The translations under genes were made by a program, and so were the position numbers. Shown piece after piece: positions 23,825 to 26,312 of a stretch of 26,312 bases of DNA. The stretch comes from a virus: positions 1 to 26,312 of IMG/VR virus record IMGVR_UViG_3300009132_000027; one strand, 5' to 3'. Below the pieces are notes generated by a model. That model searched no databases. It saw only the letters and a list, made by a program, of their open reading frames with translations, and was not told the origin of the DNA. How positions within the stretch are numbered: position 1 is the stretch's first letter; every line of letters starts with the position of its first letter.

Positions 23825-24727
23825 TTAAACACAATATCTTTGAAACTCAAGAGTCGTATTATTTGTTGAAACCGCAGGCGTTAGCACTACCTGAGTTCCA
23901 TTGGTTGCTGTAAAATCAACCCCATTAACCAACTTAATGCCGTTCATATAAACCACTATTTTACCAATATTATAATTAACTAAAAACGTGTGATCTCCGA
24001 TATTGGGCGTTAACGTATCAATTATCACGGAAGGTCTAAAATTAATTACACCCACACCATCCGTAGTCGCAATATGTCCTACTGAACTATCTGCTAAATC
24101 AAGTTCAGCGACGTTTATTACTCCTTGATTAATCTCTAGGTAGTCAATAGAACCAGAGATATCACCGCCACCAATCGCACCTACACTATCTGTATTTATA
24201 AACTTTAATTGCCCATTACCTTGAGTTGAGACAAATAAAAGACCACCTGAATCAAAAAAGGTTGTATCTAATTCAGTTAAACCAACTACATTTGGTTCAA
24301 TTTGATTACTAAGCGGAGCACCTGATATATCACCCGAAAATGTAACGGATGGAGCGACAGCACTTACCTTTGCACCTGTATATGCTGTTGTTGCTATTTT
24401 ATCAGATTCGTCTGTCAACAGTTGAGTGAATCCTAATGTTGAACCAACAATACTTGTAACATCCATTGTACCAATAATAGATATATTGCCATTCCCAGTA
24501 ATCTTAAAACTATTCAAGTCTAAATGGCCACCCAAAGCAGGGTTAGTATCTTCTACAACATTTTGCAATTCACCTTGAAGTGTTCCTAATGTTTCATTGA
24601 TTGGATTAACAATATTACTTTTATTTGTAGTATTCAAATCATCTAAATCCCCAATATTTTCAGAGATTAAATTTGTTTTTTCAATCCAAGATTTGAAAGA
24701 ATCTTTTTTAGTTATTGTTACTTGCAT
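23825..24727 (-). CDS. Tail fibre-like protein with C-terminal NGIKL domain
   Basis: A 300-residue fibre protein. Residues 1-55 form an attachment/coiled region (SWIEKTNLISENIGDLDDLN). VVEDTNPALGGHLDLNSFKI (57-76) is the same shaft module as in the 599-residue fibre, and KIATTAYTGAKVSAVAP (110-126) matches a unit of the 420-residue fibre. Gly/Asp-rich beta repeats follow, and residues 240-300 form the MNGIKL domain shared with the 85-residue gene. Its first 20 bases overlap the end of the radical SAM gene, and its GAGG ribosome site lies inside that gene, so the two are translationally coupled. This coupling is the main hint that the enzyme and the fibre belong together. Confidence 0.85.
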   Translation of the reverse strand: MQVTITKKDSFKSWIEKTNLISENIGDLDDLNTTNKSNIVNPINETLGTLQGELQNVVEDTNPALGGHLDLNSFKITGNGNISIIGTMDVTSIVGSTLGFTQLLTDESDKIATTAYTGAKVSAVAPSVTFSGDISGAPLSNQIEPNVVGLTELDTTFFDSGGLLFVSTQGNGQLKFINTDSVGAIGGGDISGSIDYLEINQGVINVAELDLADSSVGHIATTDGVGVINFRPSVIIDTLTPNIGDHTFLVNYNIGKIVVYMNGIKLVNGVDFTATNGTQVVLTPAVSTNNTTLEFQRYCV

Positions 24728-26087
24728 TTTCTATCGCCTCAAATCCAAATATATCTTGTCTAGATTCCCTTTGTGGGCCTTCGATTTTATAAAGTACCAT
24801 TCCATTTGACAACTCATATAATGCAGCTGCTAACCAAACTACATTATCACTAAAAGCATTGTTACAAGATATATCCCAATACTCTGAATCGGGTGCAAGA
24901 AATAAACAAGACCCATGACATAATTGTAATACAGGACAATCACCACATTCTTTTCTATCAGACCAATGTGTGCCTGGATTGATCTTGATTTTTGAAAGAC
25001 CTTCATCCCCTTCATCAAGATTTCCAATCTTATGACTTATTCCAGCACTATTGGTTGATGATGCTGTAACATTTTGACAAGTTGTTATATTACCATTCAT
25101 ATCAACTGCCATAGTTTGAGGATCATCCATACCACACTTTTGATTTAATGCTTCAGCAGGTCTTTGTCCTCTTAGTGATTTAACCCAATTATCAATCTTT
25201 TGTCTTATGATAATAAAGTTTGGTGCTTTTCCTGTAACAATTTCTGAAAAAGCATTTCTTCTATACTCTAAATGTTCTTCTTCGGTACGCCAAGAATTAT
25301 TTAATCCACCTTCATCATATGCATCTACTGTACCACCTTCTCCAATAGGCATATTTCCTACTTTGTTGCGAAAATATCTTTGAACTTCAGCCCTACTTGG
25401 ATTGTCTTTATGAATCATAGAATTAAAAGACATCTTACCATTAGGTGCTAATTTGTTTTTTAGTTTCTGAATCATCTTTGCTTTTTCTGGATCATCAAAT
25501 GGATCAGGCCCTCTAGTTGGTTGTCCTGGCCCATCATGTGAAACAGAAATTTGTATATTATGTTTAACAATGAAATCTATAATTTCATCTGTAAACATTG
25601 AACCATTAGTAATAACACTATAAGTAGATTCTGGCCATTTTTCATGTAACCTTTCAATTAAAGGTTTCATTGTTTTCCAATATAAAAATGGTTCACCACC
25701 CCATAACTCAAAGTGGGGTTCTTTATCTATGCTTATGCTGTCAAACTTGTTAACATATTCTTCGATCTCTGCATCAGATATACTATAAAAATCTGATGTG
25801 TCCAAATGATCGTCTTTATTTCTTGGAACAAATCTCTGTGAACAATAATCACAAGAGTAATTACATTTTAATCCCAAGTTGATTTTTATTTTCTTTAGGT
25901 TTCCTTTACCAGCATTCATCTTCCATGCTTCAAGCTCATCCCAATCATTAAACAAATCTTGAGGTAAACAGATATCACCATTTTGCATCCACATTTGAGA
26001 GGTCATGTTATCATAAGTTAAAACATCTTTTTCTGCAGGCCGATCTTCTGTAGCAGCTCTCTCTAAATAAAATTTAAACTGTGCCAT
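24708..26087 (-). CDS. Radical SAM / SPASM-domain enzyme
   Basis: A 459-residue protein. The radical SAM core begins with LGLKCNYSCDYCSQ: C75, C79 and C82 form the CxxxCxxC site that binds the [4Fe-4S] cluster and S-adenosylmethionine. WGGEP (129-133) is the SAM-binding GGEP motif, and SVSHDGPG (181-188) is a typical barrel strand. The C-terminal SPASM domain has C318, G332, C337, then C381-x2-C384-x5-C390-x3-C394 and C408, the canonical set for auxiliary clusters. SPASM enzymes such as anSME sulfatase-maturing enzymes and RiPP maturases modify peptides or proteins by radical chemistry. The substrate here is unknown. Six bases separate it from the upstream oxygenase gene, and its end overlaps a fibre gene. 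AGGGGAT precedes the ATG. Confidence 0.93.
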   Translation of the reverse strand: MAQFKFYLERAATEDRPAEKDVLTYDNMTSQMWMQNGDICLPQDLFNDWDELEAWKMNAGKGNLKKIKINLGLKCNYSCDYCSQRFVPRNKDDHLDTSDFYSISDAEIEEYVNKFDSISIDKEPHFELWGGEPFLYWKTMKPLIERLHEKWPESTYSVITNGSMFTDEIIDFIVKHNIQISVSHDGPGQPTRGPDPFDDPEKAKMIQKLKNKLAPNGKMSFNSMIHKDNPSRAEVQRYFRNKVGNMPIGEGGTVDAYDEGGLNNSWRTEEEHLEYRRNAFSEIVTGKAPNFIIIRQKIDNWVKSLRGQRPAEALNQKCGMDDPQTMAVDMNGNITTCQNVTASSTNSAGISHKIGNLDEGDEGLSKIKINPGTHWSDRKECGDCPVLQLCHGSCLFLAPDSEYWDISCNNAFSDNVVWLAAALYELSNGMVLYKIEGPQRESRQDIFGFEAIENASNNN

Positions 26088-26093
26088 ATTATA

Positions 26094-26312
26094 TTATCCC
26101 CTAAGTGGTATTGACAATTCGTTATATCCATGCGACATAACTCTAAAATTAACAACAATGCATACCCTTGTACCTTTTCCTAGCCATGGATTAGTTTCAT
26201 GCCAAACATAGTTTGGATGAATGAGTGTAAGTCCTACTCTCGGCGATACCGCATAAATCTTTTCCCAAAAAGGATAGTTGATAGAGGGGCGAGGGTCTTG
26301 AAATAAAACTTG
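26094..26312 (-). CDS. 2OG-Fe(II) oxygenase-like protein, N-terminus cut by window edge
   Basis: The last 72 residues of a gene that begins beyond the right edge. The visible part has FQDPRPSINYPFW, then AVSPRVGLTLIHPNYVWHET and KGTRVCIVVNFRVM. This is the C-terminal half of the double-stranded beta-helix in the putative 2OG-Fe(II) oxygenases common in T4-like marine phages: the His of WHE would be the distal iron ligand and the Arg of GTR the 2-oxoglutarate ligand. The proximal HxD pair must lie outside and is not seen. Such enzymes hydroxylate proteins, nucleotides or small molecules; the target is unknown. Six bases separate it from the radical SAM gene, so the two are probably one transcription unit. 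Confidence 0.75.
   Translation of the reverse strand, partial: QVLFQDPRPSINYPFWEKIYAVSPRVGLTLIHPNYVWHETNPWLGKGTRVCIVVNFRVMSHGYNELSIPLRG

Follow-up and report, generated by a model that had tools for sequence, protein, structure and literature searches.

The main known roles of radical SAM/SPASM enzymes are the production of modified peptides and the maturation of sulfatases and cofactors. The cysteine pattern of the SPASM domain has been given as CX9-15GX4C-gap-CX2CX5CX3C-gap-C, and it has been reported that the open Aux I site of CteB is occupied by a cysteine of the substrate, whereas the clusters of anSME are fully ligated (PMC6231123). In NxxcA an asparagine is joined by a C-beta thioether to the cysteine three residues further on (PMC8326336). 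The presence of radical SAM genes in phages has already been reported (PMC2853527, PMC7029224), and Campylobacter phages of the CP220 type carry many of them (PMC2853527).

Here we analysed a 26,312-base stretch of phage DNA (the window), which is an entire virus record, and found that the radical SAM/SPASM enzyme encoded near its end belongs to a family that is consistently paired with fibre-like proteins having an alternating-cysteine end ([N/A/D]-C-[N/A/D]-C and so on, hereafter CNC proteins). Based on this co-occurrence we consider it likely, with a probability of roughly 0.78, that the enzyme modifies the CNC protein.

Methods

Relatives of the enzyme were collected from viral contigs (279 found, 80 kept), genome contigs (11 loci), named phages and loci from the motif scan, and were clustered at 85% identity into 72 clusters. 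CNC proteins were found by scanning the neighbourhoods of the enzyme genes for cysteine-rich stretches. Loci with at least 5 kb of upstream and 1.5 kb of downstream flank were taken as informative for the forward test, which gave 38 nonredundant clusters. For the reverse test, viral contigs were scanned for DNA that could encode CNCxCNCxC, without regard to the enzyme, which yielded at least 120 stretches. The enzyme call in this test includes more distant members (profile score above 40 bits), and the in-frame set of 44 includes five CNC genes that were identified by inspection and not by the ORF caller. The relaxed-motif control (23/76) was biased, its loci having been selected through the DNA of the motif, and the opposite-strand and the in-frame/out-of-frame controls were used instead. 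The loci of the 2OG oxygenase (10 contigs) were all among the radical SAM loci already and therefore provided no usable negative control.

Results

The virus is a T4-like tailed phage, with strong PHROG matches for the major head protein, portal, tail sheath, large terminase, head-maturation protease and head-tail adaptor. At the end of the window lie three tightly packed genes (Table 1). The initial annotation had described them as a radical SAM/SPASM gene, the C-terminus of a 2OG oxygenase-like protein beside it, and a fibre gene that starts inside the enzyme gene, and this layout was confirmed in all three respects, with an overlap of 20 nt between the fibre-like ORF and the enzyme gene.

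Table 1. Coordinates of the genes in and around the enzyme locus (positions without a contig name refer to the window).
Feature	Position	Strand	Evidence or remark
Fibre-like ORF, 300 aa	23825-24727	(-)	Weak tail-fibre PHROG matches, best 1.3e-4
Radical SAM/SPASM enzyme, 459 aa, phrog_1802 family	24708-26087	(-)	Pfam, NCBIfam and PHROG matches
2OG-Fe(II) oxygenase, C-terminal 72 aa, cut by the window end	26094-26312	(-)	PF13759 3.6e-06; phrog_81
Complete 2OG oxygenase gene, 271 aa, on a near-identical contig	L003:7179-7994		PF13759 1.8e-07
Complete 2OG oxygenase gene on a further contig	L227:10001-10816		
CNC gene of the window's virus group	L227:8390-8803; L002:1467-1880		Upstream of the enzyme gene

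The enzyme matched the Pfam Radical_SAM family (PF04055) above the cut-off (2.7e-10), the NCBIfam SPASM domain TIGR04085 with 36.1 bits (cut-off 27) and phrog_1802 over nearly its whole length (1.5e-58, residues 61-437). The motifs named in the initial annotation were all present: the cluster motif C75/C79/C82, GGEP at residues 130-133 and seven SPASM cysteines spaced as C318-X13-G332-X4-C337, C381-X2-C384-X5-C390-X3-C394 and C408, which agrees with the published SPASM pattern (PMC6231123). Cluster motif, GGEP and SPASM cysteines were all invariant, first in 11 and then in 26 relatives. Among the named NCBIfam RiPP maturases (PapB, CcpM, CteB-type and others) all equivalog models stayed far under their cut-offs, the best being the PapB ranthipeptide maturase with 69 bits against a cut-off of 340, and a sub-threshold match was also obtained with the sulfatase-maturase model (1.9e-15). 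The AlphaFold2 model of the enzyme (pLDDT 88) was compared with solved structures, of which CteB was nearest, followed by anSME, ChlB and TigE, with EpeE ranking below CteB and anSME. With a TM of about 0.53 (normalised by query length) and 16-18% identity, CteB is moderately similar, and the score of anSME is almost as high. By inspection, the N-terminal region of the model consists of three short strands and looks unlike a canonical RRE domain. A viperin (pVip)-type defence protein was also considered and rejected; PADLOC matched the enzyme in its radical SAM core alone (residues 70-187), and a SPASM domain is present.

Pairing of the enzyme with CNC proteins was tested in both directions and is well supported. 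In the forward direction, a CNC ORF by the relaxed motif was present in 35 of the 38 informative clusters. The three others comprise a locus with a shorter NCNCNC end (L044), one with a looser NC-rich fibre (L039) and one where no CNC protein was found within 10 kb of the enzyme (L048). With the strict motif, a CNC ORF was found on the enzyme strand in 53/72 loci and on the opposite strand in 1/72 (p = 5e-22), and the relaxed motif occurred on the opposite strand in 7/72 loci. In the reverse direction, among the matches listed, 33 of the 44 in-frame cases encode the enzyme in the same stretch, against none of the 76 out-of-frame cases (p = 2e-20, an optimistic value as some of the 44 in-frame loci are near-copies). 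The remaining 11 in-frame cases, again among the matches listed, include six with the enzyme elsewhere in the record (in one case just a fragment where the contig ends). Judged by inspection, L116 looks like a spurious antisense ORF and L162 is apparently a truncated copy of the L060 locus; in L170, L187 and L220 the CNC gene is close to the contig end, and the homologues L120 and L143 have the enzyme downstream. Near-full-length matches to the enzyme in named phages were limited to the Achromobacter phages JWF and 2-1, two cultured phages that carry both the enzyme gene and the CNC gene, in JWF as gp30 and the Hint-bearing fibre gp28; the CNC segment of these phages reads NCNCDCNCNC. Phages of the CP220 type were rejected as a CNC system, since their match to the enzyme covers only residues 75-194 with about 30% identity and no CxCxCxC ORF was found in the first 50 kb of the Campylobacter phage CP220.

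The CNC gene usually lies a few genes upstream of the enzyme gene. For the virus group of the window it was located on two contigs (L227 and L002) that extend upstream and share 99.9% identity with the window end across about 5 kb; the gene lies outside the window, its end being about 1.8 kb from the window end. On these contigs the fibre-like CNC product ends NCACDCACACNC, and for this same product (gene coordinates in Table 1) the end is likewise given as NAFNCACDCACACNC. In the best explanation, what the window contains is the downstream portion of a phage cassette for virion modification, which continues beyond the window end. A glycine-rich fibre-region protein with GCPGCGGCNGG is also encoded in the same virus group (L003:341-1186).

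CNC proteins are cysteine-rich, fibre-like and usually 130-1,000 aa long. Several of them match tail-fibre PHROGs, and many CNC ends follow such a fibre body. In 65 distinct CNC proteins with 813 cysteines, the residue before the cysteine was asparagine in 69%, alanine in 12.5% and aspartate in 4%. Within CXC runs the X was N in 61%, A in 24% and D in 9%, the three together accounting for 93%, and glycine was found at X once in 304 positions as compared to 36 expected from composition. In addition, two kinds of small protein with similar ends were seen. Three of 67-79 aa, ending HTHxFxDDYSTxCNCNCNCNC (L123, L135 and L223), are accompanied by one to four divergent radical SAM genes and possibly represent a second, more distant CNC system. 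In the others (L115:2386-2784 and L149:214-600), which are encoded near a more distantly related radical SAM gene, CQTCQGCQ repeats precede NCNCDCNCNC.

The motif is found either at the C-terminus or before a further domain. Of 67 CNC ORFs, 48 stop within 12 residues after the motif, eight run into a Hint domain and two into a Peptidase_S74 domain, and most of the rest continue into an uncharacterised 'SKIIC' domain. This last domain starts with SKI[IV]CxKL in L046, L077, L079, L083 and L090, and the L077 protein had no Pfam match. The Hint domain (PF05203) begins at a cysteine, at the motif end or just after it, and Cys1 as well as [TS]xxH at about 60 residues were kept in 13/13 domains examined. 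The S74 domain (PF13884) begins just after the CNC motif, and both S74 domains read SDD[RT]LK, with serine and lysine five residues apart, the same spacing as S911 and K916 of the endosialidase (PMC8326128). When mapped onto the tree of the enzyme, the Hint arrangement requires a minimum of four changes and the S74 arrangement two, which suggests that these arrangements were acquired repeatedly. Autocleavage, as predicted from these sequence features, would leave the CNC stretch at, or a few residues from, the mature C-terminus.

Several other genes recur near the enzyme. A family of about 240-376 aa (Family X) was found in 36/72 clusters, and in many of these its gene separates the CNC gene from that of the enzyme; its structure model is confident, and it gave only partial matches to Ig-like folds, in the C-terminal region, which suggested no function. 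The coupling of oxygenase and enzyme that the initial annotation had pointed out held in part, as 2OG oxygenases were near the enzyme in 36/72 clusters. At one locus five consecutive genes of the 2OG oxygenase family lie upstream of the enzyme (L033:6146-10007). Near CNC and radical SAM genes a protein of the tryptophan-halogenase family was observed in five clusters (PF04820, 9.7e-91 for L078:12307-13491; same family in L082, L163, L213 and L215), and a RimK-like ATP-grasp protein (PF08443, 3.6e-11) adjoins the cassette at L012:2820-3758.

Discussion

The data suggest that the radical SAM/SPASM enzyme probably rebuilds the tip of a fibre chemically in many phages. As for the chemistry, thioether formation is our leading candidate, held at slightly less than even odds, because CteB is the nearest fold, PapB is the best named NCBIfam match, seven SPASM cysteines are present and NxxcA offers a precedent; the NCNC repeat contains the same Asn-Cys i, i+3 spacing as the NxxcA thioether. 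In the mechanism that we propose, the fibre would be made first, and in some phages it would carry an autocleavage domain (Hint or S74) behind the CNC stretch. The enzyme would then bind the CNC stretch, cleave SAM and abstract a hydrogen from the Asn, Ala or Asp between the cysteines, and the cysteine sulfurs would be joined to these residues as thioethers, possibly while a substrate cysteine docks on an auxiliary cluster having only three protein cysteines. Where an autocleavage domain is present, it would subsequently cut itself off and thereby leave the modified stretch exposed as the end of the fibre, and this rigid, covalently fixed tip may contact or pierce the host surface.

Other reactions on the same stretch were considered. 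Every second residue (Asn/Ala/Asp) might be epimerised to the D form, giving an alternating L/D strand that could fold as a gramicidin-like helix at the tip. Such a reaction would fit the strict two-residue alternation with almost no achiral glycine at X, PoyD works in a strict 1,3 pattern (PMC8326336), and the fold matches of the enzyme include the epimerase EpeE. However, EpeE ranks under the thioether enzyme CteB and anSME, proteusin epimerases carry the radical SAM cluster only (PMC8326336) as compared to the full seven-cysteine SPASM domain found here, and the invariance of the cysteine itself is left unexplained, and we regard epimerisation as unlikely. An oxidase similar to anSME, which would turn some cysteines of the CNC stretch into formylglycine or another, related aldehyde for host attachment, appears less probable still. 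It would agree with anSME as the second-best fold group and with the sub-threshold match to the sulfatase-maturase model, but the anSME clusters are fully ligated (PMC6231123) whereas the present family conserves only seven SPASM cysteines, the neighbour families of the enzyme loci include no sulfatase gene, and a single oxidised residue does not lead one to expect invariant long runs of cysteine.

The CNC stretch could also be a metal-binding core of the fibre, with the enzyme acting elsewhere or preparing the site indirectly. In a trimeric, beta-structured tip the alternating side chains would face the axis and might bind metal without any modification, as the HxH motifs of T4 gp37 hold seven irons (PMC11705849), and the fibre bodies that precede many CNC ends would suit this role. 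Metal binding, however, predicts neither the near-obligate link to the radical SAM gene (33/44 against 0/76 among the matches listed) nor the choice of Asn, Ala and Asp with avoidance of glycine, and it could coexist with enzymatic modification; as a full explanation it seems as improbable as epimerisation. The most improbable substrate is the overlapping downstream fibre, which the initial annotation had favoured. Its gene overlaps that of the enzyme, but a homologue directly follows the enzyme only in the closest relatives (L021, L022 and L227, 3/72 clusters), the protein contains a single cysteine and a paralogue is present elsewhere in the same genomes. The enzyme is thus found in many phages without this fibre, a distribution that the initial annotation had itself named as speaking against it, and we rejected the fibre as the likely substrate on the basis of this distribution and the single cysteine. 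What stood from that proposal is the idea of a virion-modification cassette, together with its fallback that another fibre-region protein is the target.

Modification of the CNC stretch by the enzyme would belong to a known kind of activity, radical SAM protein modification, with an unusual class of substrate. More broadly, we tentatively suggest, as a possibility somewhat short of an even chance, a widespread class of phage fibres with a covalently cross-linked Asn-Cys tip that is built by a radical SAM enzyme and, where a Hint or S74 domain is present, uncovered by its autocleavage; RiPP-type chemistry would here build a virion part and not a secreted peptide. In a search of mainly open-access journal literature, neither the enzyme-fibre pairing nor a fibre substrate nor the CNC motif was found to have been reported before. 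If confirmed, a phage enzyme dedicated to the fibre tip would be a new use of radical SAM/SPASM chemistry, and phrog_1802, whose annotation goes no further than 'radical SAM domain-containing protein', would obtain a function. This use is directly testable, as the two cultured Achromobacter phages carry both genes.

Compared to known systems, the phage cassette shares with the ranthipeptide and sactipeptide maturases (CteB, PapB, NxxcB, SkfB/AlbA) a radical SAM core, a seven-cysteine SPASM domain and a small cassette with a cysteine-rich partner. In those systems the partner is a short leader-core peptide and a leader peptidase is used, whereas here the partner is a tail-fibre protein in which cysteines alternate with Asn, Ala or Asp, Hint or S74 autocleavage would take the place of the peptidase and no canonical RRE is apparent in the enzyme model. 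The anSME enzymes resemble the phage enzyme in fold and SPASM architecture, but have eight SPASM cysteines in comparison to seven, and no sulfatase partner was seen in the phage loci. In the marine T4-like pelagimyophages, radical SAM cassettes lie in the variable host-recognition fibre region; the consulted passages of that report note them as gene content only and describe no partner protein or CNC motif (PMC7029224). Fibres of the Peptidase_S74/endosialidase type have a C-terminal Ser-Lys domain that cleaves itself off the trimeric fibre (PMC8326128), and two CNC proteins carry this domain, whereas most are without it and several have Hint instead. Finally, the tip of T4 gp37 has alternating side chains as in the CNC proteins (PMC11705849), but T4 gp37 uses histidine, while the CNC proteins use cysteine with a dedicated radical SAM enzyme encoded beside them.
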